From the NCBI GenBank assembly GCA_002401445.1, contig NVTD01000004.1, forward strand, positions 5,605 through 44,953: a stretch of DNA of 39,349 nucleotides, given 5' to 3'. Positions 11,088 through 30,709 of this stretch are shown here, piece by piece. Source of the stretch: Candidatus Wolfebacteria bacterium (GTDB taxonomy: Bacteria; Patescibacteriota; Minisyncoccia; Phycocordibacterales; GCA-2401445). How positions within the stretch are numbered: the first letter of the stretch is position 1; every line of letters starts with the position of its first letter. The notes under the pieces were generated by a model. It saw only the letters and a program-made list of their open reading frames with translations. It did no database searches and was not told the DNA's origin. The position numbers were made by a program, and so were the translations under genes.

Positions 11088-11690
11088 TCACCCTAGAGAA
11101 GTTAAAACGAACTTCGTAAATAGCAATAATCCGCTAAAACCTACATATACTAAAATGTTTAAGACCAGATTTCCTAGCAGAATTACTGGAAATATATTTC
11201 TATATCGACACCCTATAATACCAAGAGGTATTATGACCAACTCGTTTGGAGCCGGGACAAACGCAACATACGCAAATAGAATCATCATTCCAATCTTTCT
11301 GTTTTTTTCCGAGAACCTTTTGTATAGTGACTGAATTTTTTTAACAAATCTGGAATCTATTCCACCTCCAAACCTTCCTACGAAAAACCCGATGCTATCC
11401 CCTATCGTCATACCGATCGCAATCAATCCCACAGCGATCCACGGATCAAGTCCTGCCGACACAAACACAGGTATAAAAGCAGCAATAGGAACTGGAACAA
11501 ATATATTAAACCCACTTACAATCGCAAGAAAAAATATTCCAACATATCCGTACGAATAAACTATTCCTTGAACAGCTTCGTTTCCACTAACCAACCCTTC
11601 CAACCAAAGAGCAAAGACTACCAGAAAGAGCAGCAATACAGCGAAAGATACACCTCTATAAAATGTTACTTTATTTTTTGAGTAATTCAT
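11088..11690 (-). CDS. DedA/VTT-domain-like membrane protein
   Basis: 200 residues from the ATG at 11690. The longer frame to 11801 lies fully inside the upstream coding sequence and is rejected. The protein has five or six helices. YSYGYVGIFFLAIVSGFNIFVPVP, GMTIGDSIGFFVGRFGG and the Pro-containing FAYVAFVPAPNELVIIPLGIIG correspond to the conserved blocks of DedA/SNARE-associated (VTT) proteins, which are linked to lipid flipping and membrane homeostasis. The ATG overlaps the last 20 nt of the upstream gene, which suggests translational coupling. Confidence 0.75.
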   Translation of the reverse strand: MNYSKNKVTFYRGVSFAVLLLFLVVFALWLEGLVSGNEAVQGIVYSYGYVGIFFLAIVSGFNIFVPVPIAAFIPVFVSAGLDPWIAVGLIAIGMTIGDSIGFFVGRFGGGIDSRFVKKIQSLYKRFSEKNRKIGMMILFAYVAFVPAPNELVIIPLGIIGCRYRNIFPVILLGNLVLNILVYVGFSGLLLFTKFVLTSLG

Positions 11691-17821: not shown

Positions 17822-19630
17822 TTACTCCTGCAAAAAACTAAACTTGCTCCATAAAATTGAGTCAATAAACACAGCTTCGGTTGAAATACTTGCAGACTGT
17901 GTCTCTTCACTTCCACGAAGAAAATAAACAAGTTTAAGTTCTGAATCACTCGTACCGTACTCTTGCTTGTATTTCATTCCCATATCAAGAGGTGTTACAA
18001 TCTTTCGTCCATTAACGAGTGAAGTATCAAAATGAAGTCCTTTTTTTGTTGGAAGTTTTTCAAAGTACGCATCATAAATCAATTCTGAACATATCAATGC
18101 ATCACGTGTATCAAAATCAAAATTATAATCGTACGGTTTCCCAAAATGTCCAAACGACTTAAATAGAGCATACATCTTGTCTGCGTTGCCGAGCTGTGGC
18201 CGTAGCACAACTACAAAATCAGCGTGCGCCGACACTTCAAGTGATTGTAATACTACACCCGGTTCAATCGCTTCAATCACTGAATATTCAAATCCTCCTT
18301 CATCACGACTTTTATATTGTGCATATACATCTGGGAATTTATCTGCAACGTACTCGGAAAAACTATTCAATCCCTCGAGTGGAAATTGCGACTCAAAGTA
18401 TTCATTCATTTCAGAAAGTGTCCCTGTATACATTGCCGAATGAGTCCAGAAACCTGGGATACCCACATTGCTCACATGCCAATTCCTGCGTTGGAACATA
18501 ATGTCTCCGGGCGCAAGCGATTGTTGCATCGTCTGTATTTGTTCCTCTGTAATAAAGTACTCCTTACCGCGTGTTGAAATAATGGCATGTCCCATCGAGT
18601 TGGCAATTCCCCTTTGTATTGGAAACCACACATCAAACATTCTTTTTGTTGTTTTATCTACAAGTACTTCTCCTGTTGAAGCTATCGTTCGGTCAAAATT
18701 AGTCAACAAATATTTATAACTTCCTTCGGCCTTTTCCCGCAACAATGTATATATTCCCGCATATGCATTTTCTCTTGGCCCATTAAACACATACATATAC
18801 ATTTTTCCTCCGGTGATACGTAAGTGTGTTTTTGGTTCATAAAATCTACCTACCATTTCATTAAATATATCGCCACGGTCAAAAAACTCGACGTGTTGAT
18901 TTAATACCTTCTTTTTGTACTCACTGCCAGATACTTCGGTCATTAAACGATGTACAATTTCATATTTCTTAACATACAAACTATATGAGATTAAAAACGA
19001 AGCAGTCCTTTCCTCTGATAGTCGATATGGAATATTACCAAAATATCTATGCGTGTCAGTCAACGCTTCTGACAACAACACCGCAGTTAGAAAATCAGTA
19101 AACTGCGCGGTAAGAATTTCAGTATGATTTGCGTCCTCTCTTTCACTCGAAAGAGTACGTAGAAGTGTATTACCTGATGTCTCCAAATAATCAATCGAGG
19201 TTACTGATCGGTACATATCATCACTGATCACTTGCTCTATTTCGTTATCACTCATGTCTTTGAATACATTCGAATCAAGTGGCCGTAGTACCAAAAATGA
19301 CAGAGTAGAAACAATGAATAGTACGCCTAAAAGCAATTTCCATTTCTCTCCAATAATAAACTGCTTTGTAGATTTGTATGCTTTATATTTTCTCCAAGTT
19401 GCCCTTGAAATATAAATTTTGCGAAAAAACGGTATGAACGAAACTACATAAATACCAACACCAATCACAATATGGAATGGGTATAAAAGTTGTAGTCCTA
19501 CAATAGCTAGACTCACAAAGGTCAACAAAACAGACACTATCGTTGTTTTTAGTATTTGCTTTCGTACTTTTTCAAATTGCTCTAATGGAGATAGAGTTTG
19601 TTTTGTTTTCCCCCGCTTTTTCTTTTGCAT
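17822..19630 (-). CDS. Membrane-anchored YiiX/NlpC-P60-like protein
   Basis: About 602 residues from the ATG at 19630 (MQKKKRGKTK); an earlier in-frame ATG at 19657 is possible. Hydrophobic segments lie at about 30-50, 55-71 and 98-116, after which most of the chain should be extracytoplasmic. The C-terminal third holds a permuted papain fold: APGDIMFQRRNW...GFWTHSAMYTG with His397 and DALICSELIYDAY with Cys514. This order, His before Cys, is that of the YiiX/YaeF C92-like family. The region of ~250 residues in between is not recognised. It may cut or modify lipids or peptidoglycan peptides; the substrate is unknown. Confidence 0.8.
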   Translation of the reverse strand: MQKKKRGKTKQTLSPLEQFEKVRKQILKTTIVSVLLTFVSLAIVGLQLLYPFHIVIGVGIYVVSFIPFFRKIYISRATWRKYKAYKSTKQFIIGEKWKLLLGVLFIVSTLSFLVLRPLDSNVFKDMSDNEIEQVISDDMYRSVTSIDYLETSGNTLLRTLSSEREDANHTEILTAQFTDFLTAVLLSEALTDTHRYFGNIPYRLSEERTASFLISYSLYVKKYEIVHRLMTEVSGSEYKKKVLNQHVEFFDRGDIFNEMVGRFYEPKTHLRITGGKMYMYVFNGPRENAYAGIYTLLREKAEGSYKYLLTNFDRTIASTGEVLVDKTTKRMFDVWFPIQRGIANSMGHAIISTRGKEYFITEEQIQTMQQSLAPGDIMFQRRNWHVSNVGIPGFWTHSAMYTGTLSEMNEYFESQFPLEGLNSFSEYVADKFPDVYAQYKSRDEGGFEYSVIEAIEPGVVLQSLEVSAHADFVVVLRPQLGNADKMYALFKSFGHFGKPYDYNFDFDTRDALICSELIYDAYFEKLPTKKGLHFDTSLVNGRKIVTPLDMGMKYKQEYGTSDSELKLVYFLRGSEETQSASISTEAVFIDSILWSKFSFLQE

Positions 19631-19688
19631 AACTGTGTTGAGTATAACATGAGACAACTTTTGAAATGAAGTCAGCCTAATTTACAAA

Positions 19689-20319: not shown

Positions 20320-21159
20320 TTAATTAATCCACGTTACGTGAGTAACAACAACGCGCCCGTTACCCAAGTTTTTCTCAAACAAAGAGTCTTTGCCGCTCGC
20401 ATCTTGTGCTATAGCACGTCCCCACGAAGAAGGATCGTCAAAATCTATATGAGATCCAACATCTGCTGGTTTACCTTTTCCTCCACCGTTTCCACCACCA
20501 TTTCCCTTATCTGGTTTGCCGCCTCCACCTCCACCATCTGTTGAATTAAGATGTGAATGCATCTCTGTCATCATGTCGTAATCATGCTGATTTGGATGTT
20601 GATTATCTAGTTGTCCAAGAATAGTACCATCTGGATCATTTGTGTAATCCATACATGTACCTAGATTTGCATTGTTAAATGCTTCATCCTGATGATCTAA
20701 TCCAAATGTATGACCTATTTCCTGACACATAACCAAATTTCTCCATGCGTCTGTATTGTAAGAAGGGGTGTTAAAATATGTATCATTCACCTTCACAACT
20801 CCTTGTACTATGTGATTGCTCTTACCACGTGTCGCCCAAACTGATGCAATACCAAGCCATCCATTGTCTCCGTACTCACCGTTACATATCTCAACTCGTC
20901 CGCTCGTTGGATCACAGTCTGCGTTACTTGCTCCTGCAGATATTTGATTCTTCAAAACCGAAAGATTCCAATCAATTGAAGCTCCTGTTAAACTACTACC
21001 CCAAACCGTTGAGAGATTATCTCCTAACTCAAGAGGGCTTATTGTTGAATCTGCTGTCGAAATATCCCAGTGATATTTACCCCAAGCATGATTAGCACTC
21101 ACTGTTCCCGCCACAAACAAAGCAATTAGCGGCAATATTATATAAAGTTTTTTTGACAT
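20320..21159 (-). CDS. Secreted metallopeptidase-like protein with QExxH
   Basis: 279 residues from the ATG at 21159 (MSKKLYIILPLIALFVAGTVSA: signal peptide, cleavage near residue 22). The middle resembles M10-type (metzincin) peptidases: NLVMCQEIGHTFGLDHQDE (about 141-159) followed by the Met-turn-like GTCMDYTNDP. The usual HExxHxxGxxH reads QExxHxxGxxH: Gln146 replaces the first zinc histidine, while Glu147, His150 and His156 remain. A Gly/Lys-rich linker (about 208-232) leads to a short C-terminal segment ending VVVTHVTWIN. It may be an inactive binding protein or use altered metal binding. It starts the surface-protein island on its downstream side. Confidence 0.75.
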   Translation of the reverse strand: MSKKLYIILPLIALFVAGTVSANHAWGKYHWDISTADSTISPLELGDNLSTVWGSSLTGASIDWNLSVLKNQISAGASNADCDPTSGRVEICNGEYGDNGWLGIASVWATRGKSNHIVQGVVKVNDTYFNTPSYNTDAWRNLVMCQEIGHTFGLDHQDEAFNNANLGTCMDYTNDPDGTILGQLDNQHPNQHDYDMMTEMHSHLNSTDGGGGGGKPDKGNGGGNGGGKGKPADVGSHIDFDDPSSWGRAIAQDASGKDSLFEKNLGNGRVVVTHVTWIN

Positions 21160-21239
21160 AAATCTTATTCGAATTAGTAATGATGTAAATTGACGACCAT
21201 TCACACCCTTGTGTATAGGATTAATTATACATGATTATG

Positions 21240-21302: not shown

Positions 21303-21317
21303 GCACTTACTATAGCA

Positions 21318-21341
21318 AAATACCCCTTTAAAGGGGTATTT
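21318..21341. terminator. Terminator-like perfect palindrome
   Basis: Twelve-bp perfect inverted repeat with centre between 21329 and 21330 (left arm AAATACCCCTTT). It lies 24 nt past the stop codon of the minus-strand cohesin gene. The T runs at its edges are short, so efficiency is uncertain. Confidence 0.65.
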
Positions 21342-21364
21342 ATACTTACAAACACTATTTATAT

Positions 21365-22129
21365 TTACCTTCGTCTACTTCGCCGTACACCCACCCCAAC
21401 CCCGAGATAGAATACTACAACAAGAATCAATATCACAACCAACATACCGATACCCATATTCCCTGTTCCTAGAGTAACAGCACTGGCACCAACAGCCGCC
21501 ACAAGTGCTTGTGCACCGACTGATTGTGTTGAAGTTGCTACTTCTTCCTCTGCATCAACAACAACAGTTTCCTGCTCAACAACACTATCTACTTTCTCTA
21601 CCTTCTTTGTCACAACTGGCTCAGCTTTCACTGGAGCGGGAGTAGAAACATTTACCGTAGTACTCACAGCCCCACTTCCAATAAGATTATTGTTGTTCGC
21701 ATCAAGAGTAAGAGAATCTCCTGATAGCACAATTGATCCATTACCATCCTTTTTTGCTACAAATGAGACCGTACCAAATGTCGCTTGCGTACTTAATCCT
21801 CCAGGATAACCTGCGGTTTTAATAAGAGAACCACTAGCATTATCAATGAGATCATACCCAGGTTGAGCAACTGCCATCCATCCACTAGTAAACGTAAACG
21901 ACTTTACCTCCAAAAGATCCGAAGGATAATTCAACTCTGTCTTAACAGTATAATTCTTTACTCCTTTTGGATTAACTCCAATAGTAAGAGTAAACGTTTG
22001 TCCTTTTTTAACACTAACGCTAGTTGGACTAAATGACACATCAGTACTTGCAAGCACAGAAGAAGTCGGGACCATCGCAATCAACGCAGTAAGTAAAATA
22101 GCAAATCCAGTTTTTTTCATAGTATTCAT
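21365..22129 (-). CDS. Membrane-anchored cohesin-domain protein
   Basis: 254 residues from the ATG at 22129; ATG at 22120 is an alternative. A signal peptide (MKKTGFAILLTALIAMVPTS) leads to a cohesin-like beta domain of ~125 residues. It opens with DVSFSPTSVSVKKGQTFTLTIGVNP and continues with YTVKTELNYPSDLLEVKSFTF and TFGTVSFVAKKDGNGSIVLSGDSLTLDANNNNLI, all typical of cohesins. A Val/Glu/Thr-rich linker, a C-terminal helix (LVVILILVVVFYLGVGVGV) and a basic stop (RRSRRR) hold it on the cell surface. The gene directly upstream, 8 nt away, encodes a dockerin, the natural partner of a cohesin. Confidence 0.8.
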   Translation of the reverse strand: MNTMKKTGFAILLTALIAMVPTSSVLASTDVSFSPTSVSVKKGQTFTLTIGVNPKGVKNYTVKTELNYPSDLLEVKSFTFTSGWMAVAQPGYDLIDNASGSLIKTAGYPGGLSTQATFGTVSFVAKKDGNGSIVLSGDSLTLDANNNNLIGSGAVSTTVNVSTPAPVKAEPVVTKKVEKVDSVVEQETVVVDAEEEVATSTQSVGAQALVAAVGASAVTLGTGNMGIGMLVVILILVVVFYLGVGVGVRRSRRR

Positions 22130-22137
22130 AATTATTA

Positions 22138-23178
22138 TTATTGTGCCCAACTAACCATCAATAAGTTGAAATCGAATATATCAACCTTCCCGTTACCGTC
22201 CAAATCGGCATAAGCATTGGTGGGGCTACCTCCCCAATTCACCATAATGATGTTGAAGTCAAATATATCAACTTTAAAATTTTGGTCTATATCTCCACGT
22301 ATTGTAGTAGTAGCAGCTATTGTATCTGCTACGATCCCACCTCCACCACTTGGTGCTACTACAGTGGCCTGTACGACAACCGATGCAGAACCACCAAACA
22401 AGACATATGGTGTTTGTGCAGAAGACACACTAAACGTAAGAGTGTTCGCACTTGTATCTATGGTAAATGGATCAATAGCTACCCATGATGTTCCATCGTG
22501 TCGATACGGCTTAATCGTGCTTTCATCGATCCCTGAATCATCGTATGTAATCGTTACAGAAATAGTTAAATTATCTCCTGTAATGTTTATCTCAAATCCT
22601 TTTAACAAATTATTGCCACTCAAAATACCAGTAGCACCTGAAAAGAAGCTACTTGAGAGTTCCTCTACAGTAGTAATCGTTGCACTTGTATTTTGATCAG
22701 ACGAAATTGTAATAGCTAAATCGCTACCAACACTCACCTGCGTTGGACTAGACGAAGTTACCACCACAACCTGATTACTGATAGAACCTCCATCCGCAAC
22801 AGTCAAACTACCCACAGAACCACTCAATGTAAGAGCTAGTTCTGCATATCCTCCTCTTTCGAGAGAAGCTGTCTGACTAGCAGTGACGCCTCCGACAGTA
22901 AATACTGCAGTCTCACCAGACCAGTCAGAAGTTTCATTAATCGCAAACAACAAATCAGGACTATAGCCGTATTTCCCATCTGTAGTAGAAGAAGTGCCCA
23001 CAGTCTCTCCATCCACACTAACCTTCACAACCAATCCATCAGGAGCAGAATCTCCCGAGAAAGTAACCGTTCCATAAAATTGATGCGGAATACCTGGGGC
23101 AGCAGAGGCAACCGCTGGCAAAACTGCAAACAGCGCTATCACCAAAGATATTTTAATTAACCCGTGAAATATTTTCAT
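22138..23178 (-). CDS. Secreted dockerin-domain protein
   Basis: 346 residues. Signal peptide ending near AVASAAPG (residue ~27). A beta-sandwich domain of about 85 residues follows (QFYGTVTFSGDSAPDGLVVKVSVDGETVG...), then an Ig-like stretch and a Gly-rich linker. The last ~53 residues form a type I dockerin-like module with two Ca-binding repeats: GDIDQNFKVDIFDFNIIMVNW and ADLDGNGKVDIFDFNLLMVSW, each with the D-x-D-x-N-x-K-V-D EF-hand loop. There is no membrane anchor at the C-terminus, so retention on the surface would depend on a cohesin such as that of the next gene. Start chosen at the ATG before the signal peptide. Confidence 0.85.
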   Translation of the reverse strand: MKIFHGLIKISLVIALFAVLPAVASAAPGIPHQFYGTVTFSGDSAPDGLVVKVSVDGETVGTSSTTDGKYGYSPDLLFAINETSDWSGETAVFTVGGVTASQTASLERGGYAELALTLSGSVGSLTVADGGSISNQVVVVTSSSPTQVSVGSDLAITISSDQNTSATITTVEELSSSFFSGATGILSGNNLLKGFEINITGDNLTISVTITYDDSGIDESTIKPYRHDGTSWVAIDPFTIDTSANTLTFSVSSAQTPYVLFGGSASVVVQATVVAPSGGGGIVADTIAATTTIRGDIDQNFKVDIFDFNIIMVNWGGSPTNAYADLDGNGKVDIFDFNLLMVSWAQ

Positions 23179-29536: not shown

Positions 29537-30709
29537 TTATATAGAACAATACGGGATCGAAGTCATGCTTCCTCCTATATTTACTTGAAACAAATTTCTA
29601 TATGCAGACCTTTTGTCTATAGAAAAATAGTCATACCCACAATCAGCGCGCTTATCAATCTCCTCTAGGTTTGACACGCCATTAGTAACAGGATTGGGTG
29701 AAATCGTCGTATTATATACTCCAAAATCCCAATTATGTGCATCATCAGTACCTGATGTGTAAGCAATAATGTCTCCCGCCTTGAATGACACAGGGATGCT
29801 TGGTGCCTGCGTACGAGAATCATCCACTGCAGGATTCGTAGGAATAACAGCGAGCAATGCCTCGACAGGCTCTAGAATATGATCAAATTTAATTTCTACC
29901 TCACAACTAACTTCAAAAAATAAAAGGAACTGTGGGACTGAACTGTGTTGTGGAGTAATATAGTGTGAAGCAGAGGACAATGTCATATCTACGGGTGCAT
30001 AGACTGGAACCTTCTTTCCATCCTGAATCCACAAATACGAATGTGACTTTACTACTCCCCCGTCAAAAATCGTTCCAGGTGGAGTGATTTTTGCCAATCG
30101 AGAAACATCTGTAATGTCATTGGTGAAGATTGGACTAGGATTACTCTCACAAGTAGATTGTGTGCCTAAAACGAAGTTTTCCGAGTGATTATTCGAGCCC
30201 ACGGTTAAACTGGTAAGAATTGTACGCAATCGCTCAATTTCGTCTTTGTTATAGTCATTATTCTCTAGATCTAAAAGATCACCTGTGATTCTCTCTGAAT
30301 GACCGGATGATAAATAGAGACCACTACCTTGCGCACCCACAAGTTCTTGCTCCAAAGCAATAAATTGGTCATTTATTGATTGTGTAGATCCCACCCCCTC
30401 GAAAACGGTGTTTGTATCACTGTTAATAATATTACTCTCATGCTGAACAATCATGTTTTCCTCCACCCCTGCAATCACAGAAGAGTCATTGTTCTGTACG
30501 GTACCTAACACTGCTTCATCTGGTTGATCAATTTGAGTAGTTTTAACATGTCTTTCCCCCCTCTTATCATCAATAATGGCTTTGTTCACATCGATACTCT
30601 CAGACAAACCATTAGATGTCTCAGGCACATCAAAACGCATAGAAATATTTGCGTACACAACGAAAATAAGTGTTACAAAAATAGCGATTATTATAATAAT
30701 CTTCTGCAT
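29537..30709 (-). CDS. Secreted protein with degenerate LytM/M23-like domain
   Basis: 390 residues. An N-terminal signal anchor (residues 2-20) is followed by a long polar, Asn/Ser-rich region to about 165. The C-terminal ~200 residues look like the beta-sandwich of M23/LytM peptidases: ARLAKITPPGTIFDGGVV, VPVYAPVDMTLSSASHYI, LLFFEVSCEVEIKFDHI, VSFKAGDIIAYTSGT and HNWDFGVYN. The classic HxxxD and HxH zinc motifs are not intact, so it may bind rather than cut peptidoglycan. Four Cys residues in the C-terminal part could form disulfides. Identification by pattern only. Confidence 0.6.
   Translation of the reverse strand: MQKIIIIIAIFVTLIFVVYANISMRFDVPETSNGLSESIDVNKAIIDDKRGERHVKTTQIDQPDEAVLGTVQNNDSSVIAGVEENMIVQHESNIINSDTNTVFEGVGSTQSINDQFIALEQELVGAQGSGLYLSSGHSERITGDLLDLENNDYNKDEIERLRTILTSLTVGSNNHSENFVLGTQSTCESNPSPIFTNDITDVSRLAKITPPGTIFDGGVVKSHSYLWIQDGKKVPVYAPVDMTLSSASHYITPQHSSVPQFLLFFEVSCEVEIKFDHILEPVEALLAVIPTNPAVDDSRTQAPSIPVSFKAGDIIAYTSGTDDAHNWDFGVYNTTISPNPVTNGVSNLEEIDKRADCGYDYFSIDKRSAYRNLFQVNIGGSMTSIPYCSI

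Follow-up and report, generated by a model that had tools for sequence, protein, structure and literature searches.

The analysis supports the presence, in a bacterium of a Parcubacteria-type CPR lineage, of adjacent genes that encode a true dockerin and a true cohesin, both of them exported, with the cohesin anchored in the membrane. We consider it likely that the pair holds secreted surface proteins on the membrane by a non-covalent socket that depends on calcium and is unconnected to the digestion of cellulose. Here, binding, its dependence on calcium, the contact of a giant protein with its adaptor, and adhesion are what we infer. This reading draws on domains that score over their cut-offs, on an operon that is conserved, on classes of dockerin and cohesin that agree with one another, on the variety of the cargo, on the matching of modules between neighboring proteins, and on a docked model of a homolog. 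Confidence in the biological role as a surface socket is moderate.

The window is the whole stretch of DNA that was analyzed, 39,349 nucleotides from Candidatus Wolfebacteria, whose genome is 1.12 Mb in 62 contigs. A preliminary description, made from the sequence alone, had placed the gene pair at 21365-23178. Both the position and the pair proved right, as did the spacing given there, which from the dockerin stop to the cohesin ATG at 22129 is exactly 8 nt. The features of the locus are collected in Table 1. The gene for a giant Ig-repeat protein has its end 74 nt upstream of the dockerin gene, and past the cohesin gene a hairpin with a T run marks the end of the operon. The giant protein, also recognized in that description, is genuine (Big_5, 53 bits), and carries neither a dockerin nor a C-terminal anchor.

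Table 1. Features of the dockerin-cohesin locus, in window coordinates.
Feature	Position	Strand	Basis and remarks
Giant secreted Ig-repeat protein, 2013 aa	23253..29294	(-)	Big_5/Big_12/Big_13; C-terminal double GWNL module
Secreted dockerin protein, 346 aa	22138..23178	(-)	Signal peptide, HQFYG-type beta module, second Ig-like region, Gly-rich linker, C-terminal dockerin
N-terminal HQFYG-type module of dockerin protein	22813..23112	(-)	phmmer matches: L119, L122, L129, L137, L125
Dockerin domain, residues 295-346	22141..22296	(-)	Pfam Dockerin_1 26.4 bits, ligand check, alignment; class motif DIFDFN-x-LMV-x-W
Membrane-anchored cohesin protein	21365..22129	(-)	Start ATG 22129 or 22120
Cohesin domain	21635..22051	(-)	Pfam Cohesin 29.4 bits, AlphaFold2, Foldseek to solved cohesins
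C-terminal transmembrane helix, then positively charged tail	21383..21457	(-)	Hydropathy, predicted helix 222-250, kept in relatives
Terminator-like hairpin, 10-bp stem with following T run	21314..21346	(-)	z -3.07; just 3' of cohesin gene

Three further genes of the window deserve mention. Directly upstream of the giant Ig gene, 29537-30709(-) encodes a secreted protein of 390 aa. The LytM-like character originally assigned to it holds insofar as a degenerate LytM/M23-like domain can be recognized by eye, but no Pfam family matches it at E<=0.001. The neighbor described as metallopeptidase-like (20320-21204(-)) contains CQEIGHTFGLDHQDE, a metzincin-like motif with Gln replacing the first His, and its Pfam matches to reprolysin are all sub-threshold, leaving the assignment weak. 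Near the surface-protein operon, 17822-19657(-) encodes a membrane protein whose amidase domain is of the permuted papain-like C92 kind (YaeF/YiiX family).

The last 52 residues of the dockerin protein contain two repeats, DIDQNFKVDIFDF and DLDGNGKVDIFDF. Each places D/D/N/D/D at calcium positions 1, 3, 5, 9 and 12, so that all ten ligands are present, and together they make up the duplicated calcium loop-helix of Dockerin type I (PF00404). No second repeat pair of this kind appears in six frames of the window. Against a Pfam cut-off of 22.9 bits for Dockerin_1, the domain scores 26.4 bits alone and 24.5 bits in a six-frame search; the 21.7 bits of the full-length scan fall just under. The two dockerin repeats of the preliminary description are thus borne out.

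So is its cohesin-like domain with a membrane anchor. The cohesin protein consists of a signal peptide, the cohesin domain, a disordered linker, a hydrophobic helix, and a terminal RRSRRR. The Pfam Cohesin family (PF00963) has a curated cut-off of 24.1 bits; the domain scores 29.4 bits alone and 28.6 bits in the six-frame search. A full-length hmmscan of the protein missed it, and it was recovered by rescanning the domain alone. In the AlphaFold2 model, the 10-residue blocks from about 31 to 160 mostly have pLDDT >90, the linker (180-219) is disordered, and the terminal helix spans 222-250. When the model is compared to the PDB with Foldseek, ranks 1-21 are all cohesins (clostridial, ruminococcal, and from C. 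perfringens), with a TM-score to the target of up to 0.79, and the fold is the nine-strand jelly roll of cohesins. The first non-cohesin, a fibrillar adhesin domain (9ifr), comes at rank 22, with integrins near rank 48. Thus, a better alignment with some unrelated Ig fold, which would have spoken against the assignment, did not occur. Identity to the best-matching solved cohesins is only about 11-17%, and a PDB sequence search with the protein or its profile returned no cohesin; the solved cohesins are recognized by structure only. An alignment made by eye suggests, as a lead only, that position 58 in the cohesin of the window corresponds to Asn37 of the cohesin of C. thermocellum. Asn37 is a specificity hot spot of that cohesin (PMC12484212).

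Adjacent genes might, of course, be adjacent by accident. That this is not so here follows from the conservation of the pair, both across the order and in named genomes. Across the 297 genomes of the window's order, the cohesin profile matches 97 and Dockerin_1 matches 120, with both present in 84 (Fisher p 6e-31, uncorrected for phylogeny). The order yields 139 cohesin matches. For 72 of them a dockerin is listed within 3 kb upstream, on the same strand; for one it is downstream, and for one on the opposite strand. For the cohesin class closest to that of the window, here called type A, a dockerin ORF lies directly upstream in 16 of 16 genomes of the order. Type A loci in named genomes, scanned with a profile from a 5-row alignment (a 16-row alignment was too diverse), give the same picture. 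At 19 of 22 loci the dockerin gene is directly upstream, nearly always at -13 to +18 nt; the other three are a contig edge, a fragment, and locus L140. The hosts belong mostly to Parcubacteria groups, Berkelbacteria and Omnitrophota contributing one record each, and type A cohesins are present in further orders and classes of the phylum. The C-terminal membrane helix is conserved in the relatives. Each protein has a single cohesin, both in the window and throughout the close relatives, and none is a scaffoldin. Some upstream dockerins (L102, L104-L106) are degenerate in their calcium loops, and calcium binding is therefore not kept everywhere.

Two observations were made along the way. In one Parcubacterium (L137, 7301-8765 and 11141-14913), about 2.4 kb separates two dockerin/cohesin pairs that differ in class. 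At three loci (L058 3699-9526, L134 7899-12413, and L105 170-6910), the cohesin gene is followed by genes for a membrane protein whose cytoplasmic domain is conserved, for a response regulator, and for a histidine kinase, and in L105 the cohesin is fused to that membrane domain. This arrangement suggests that some cohesin sockets may report to a two-component system.

The plugs and sockets fall into classes. Type A dockerins have DFN after the calcium loop, or DFV/DFI in one clade, and type B dockerins have DFS; DFN, DFV and DFS dockerins are each paired with their own cohesin class. In the type B arrangement, two genes usually come after that for the dockerin; their products are cohesin-like membrane proteins, one of about 300 and the other of about 570 residues. 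The genome studied here contains a single cohesin and a single dockerin of type A, with its type B cohesins on contig C57. Such concordance of classes is what matched specificities would look like. We give it modest weight, because the tree shows just one switch between DFN and DFV (97/95 support) and the correlation of partner distances is weak (Mantel r 0.18, p 0.025). An apparent covariation of dockerin position 14 with cohesin residues 58-59 was set aside, as it comes from one clade and counts once.

Ahead of the type B cohesin pair on contig C57 (L011, about 11120-11190) stands no more than the final portion of a dockerin, KVNSIDFSILLYQWKK, beyond which the sequence is different; a truncated gene or a misjoin in the assembly is the probable cause. 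The dockerin of L119 (4036-5328), NKYDFALMMANW, belongs to a third class and has a cohesin of its own adjoining. The N-terminal HQFYG module of its dockerin protein is 50% identical to that of the window, a likeness that would reflect module swapping between dockerin classes.

What the dockerins carry differs from lineage to lineage. A type A dockerin is found on a subtilase (Peptidase_S8) in L124, to which L128 and L135 are 50-58% identical over their length, on a polysaccharide deacetylase (Polysacc_deac_1) with Ig domains in L062, on a LamG protein (Laminin_G_3) in L131, and on an Ig protein in L127. PG_binding_1 and Ig domains occur on the dockerin proteins found elsewhere in the genome. 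On the dockerin proteins scanned, these included, no glycoside hydrolase or carbohydrate-binding family was found, in keeping with the non-cellulolytic setting proposed at the outset. Such variable cargo suggests a general anchoring socket, for which adhesion may be one use. The dockerin protein of the window has no sortase-type LPXTG anchor, its C-terminus being the dockerin; the genome encodes one sortase elsewhere.

At other loci a small dockerin protein, of about 130-440 residues, is accompanied by a large secreted protein without a dockerin, encoded directly upstream. In amino acids, these large proteins measure 2013 in the window, 1926 in L137, 1664 in L133, 1489 in L132, 1456 in L102, 951+ in L138, 869+ in L123, 754+ in L139, 705 in L105, 610 in L122, and 607 in both L107 and L108. 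The modules of the two partners match. Upstream proteins with LGVT modules pair with small dockerin proteins that have GTYxxxQSV modules (L102, L107, L132, L133, and L108, where the GTYxxxQSV module is on a separate ORF), and those with C-terminal GWNL modules pair with the HQFYG module (the window, L129, L137 and, by eye, L122). The HQFYG-type N-terminal module of the window's dockerin protein is, by phmmer, common to other small dockerin proteins. From gene order and this matching, the giant Ig-repeat protein of the window is likely to be the cargo, for which the small dockerin protein may act as an adaptor. An adaptor role fits the matching of modules, because in other lineages the large protein itself bears the dockerin as a direct fusion.

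Prediction of the pair as a complex, which the preliminary description had called for, was made with a homolog. The dockerin and cohesin genes of the window are out of frame, and the close homolog L122 was therefore used for the joined model. Its two genes are in frame, so that a read-through of the stop codon yields one chain of natural sequence; its cohesin is 62% identical to that of the window over 135 columns. The AlphaFold2 alignment held seven further read-through chains together with single-domain rows. The model has a mean pLDDT of 88.7 and a pTM of 0.83, with pLDDT <50 only in the linker (62-83). Were the dockerin unplaced, a pTM of about 0.61 would be expected by our own estimate; the single-domain model of the window cohesin, with its ends unplaced, has 0.61. 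The difference means that the placement of the dockerin on the cohesin is predicted with confidence, as is the interface, within a model whose tether could favor docking. Confidence is high that the dockerin would bind the cohesin of the same operon.

Three other readings must be weighed against that of a surface socket. Cohesins and dockerins define cellulosomes, and the expressed cohesin and dockerin genes of Shapirobacterales have been read in that way (PMC9123182). The operon might then be a minimal cellulosome, in which the cohesin and its dockerin cargo organize enzymes that degrade polysaccharides; a GH3-type gene about 8 kb away and the deacetylase cargo of L062 would fit. However, each protein has one cohesin, a scaffoldin is absent, and the scanned dockerin proteins lack glycoside hydrolases and carbohydrate-binding families, which makes a cellulosome very improbable. 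It might be supposed instead that the pair shares an operon without binding, the dockerin being an internal, calcium-clamped end cap and the cohesin-fold domain a separate adhesin or sugar-binding module. The degenerate calcium loops of some upstream dockerins, and the related fold in 9ifr, lend themselves to this. Such independence is hard to square with a gene order fixed over many families, with classes of dockerin and cohesin that are concordant, and with a docked model that is predicted confidently, and we hold it to be unlikely.

A third reading accepts that the two bind and makes the socket more general, so that the window cohesin would also take dockerins encoded elsewhere, such as those of the multi-dockerin, peptidoglycan-binding proteins of contig C41. 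Cellulosomal sockets do serve many dockerins, and the search of the genome for further dockerins, which had been proposed earlier, found six matches over the cut-off, all on C41. These dockerins, however, lack the DxFDFN/LM..W motif of the type A class, and the type A profile gives them poor scores (E of 0.05 or worse). The genome sets its one type A cohesin beside its one type A dockerin, and its type B cohesins form a set apart, on C57. We think it unlikely that the window cohesin accepts the C41 dockerins as well and that its neighbor is just one cargo among several. The C41 proteins themselves (L010, 2334-5399, 5505-7949 and 8079-10064) are secreted, encoded in tandem, and built of PG_binding_1 and Kre9/Ig-type domains; two of the three carry two to four dockerins each, of a different class, and no cohesin was recognized nearby.

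The mechanism that we favor, the membrane socket, would work as follows. The cohesin protein would be exported and held in the membrane by its C-terminal helix, exposing one cohesin domain on a disordered, flexible stalk. The C-terminal dockerin of a secreted partner would fold around two calcium ions and bind the cohesin, and the partner would thereby be kept on the cell surface non-covalently. Cargo would either be fused to the dockerin, as in the subtilase, polysaccharide deacetylase, LamG, and Ig proteins, or be held through an adaptor. In the window, the giant anchorless Ig-repeat protein would probably be the cargo and the small dockerin protein the adaptor. For Ig-repeat cargo, adhesion to a host cell or a surface is plausible. 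A further elaboration, in which the giant Ig adhesin, the N-module of the dockerin adaptor, and the membrane cohesin form a three-part relay on the CPR surface, with calcium controlling the hold on a host or neighbor cell and lineages swapping cargo while keeping the socket, is rather speculative, and we think it more doubtful than probable.

Adjacent pairs outside cellulosomes have a precedent. The closest is that of Archaeoglobus fulgidus, whose dockerin ORF2375 and cohesin ORF2376, encoded side by side and non-cellulosomal, show strong and specific binding (PMC9705933). The A. fulgidus cohesin (PDB 2xdh) is among the structural matches of the fold. The window resembles this system in having one dockerin and one cohesin in adjacent genes, both exported, with no cellulolytic domain. 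However, the A. fulgidus pair is archaeal, whereas the CPR pair keeps its dockerin-then-cohesin order over many CPR families, with exchangeable cargo and at least two cohesin classes. Clostridial and ruminococcal cellulosomes (Coh-OlpC/OlpA, ScaE) share the cohesin fold, the two-repeat dockerin and a surface-anchored cohesin; unlike them, the CPR locus has no scaffoldin and, among the dockerin proteins scanned, no dockerin-bearing cellulase. Where cellulosomes anchor by SLH domains or sortase, the CPR system uses a single cohesin on a C-terminal membrane helix. Sortase anchoring would have an effect similar to that of the proposed socket, though the genome has a sortase as well.

ANME archaea have many dockerin and cohesin proteins, whose role is unclear (PMC9012536). 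These too are non-cellulolytic surface proteins of partner-dependent microbes, but they include scaffoldin-like proteins with multiple cohesins and ABC-transporter cargo, in contrast to the compact operons and single cohesins of CPR bacteria. A giant protein with nine dockerins is known from Omnitrophota (PMC10066038). Within the CPR radiation, the same domain families appear in an essential dockerin protein of a Saccharibacterium, SEML1_0315 (PMC10633639), and in the Shapirobacterales genes already cited; pairing, operon and cargo were not seen analyzed there. Thus, the preliminary description was too generous in supposing the arrangement new, although the conserved operon and its exchangeable cargo were not found described in the literature searched, which was limited to open-licence papers, so that absence is weak evidence. 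As a whole, its interpretation is partly supported.

The expression of cohesins and dockerins in CPR bacteria should not, on this view of the operon as a socket, be equated with the degradation of cellulose. To our knowledge, how CPR bacteria hold their surface proteins and attach to their partners is largely unknown, few of them being culturable. The operon offers a concrete and testable anchoring system present in many CPR genomes, a new collection of non-cellulosomal cohesin-dockerin pairs whose partners would be specific for each other, and, in the dockerin tag, a way to list the cargo that these bacteria would display at their surface.
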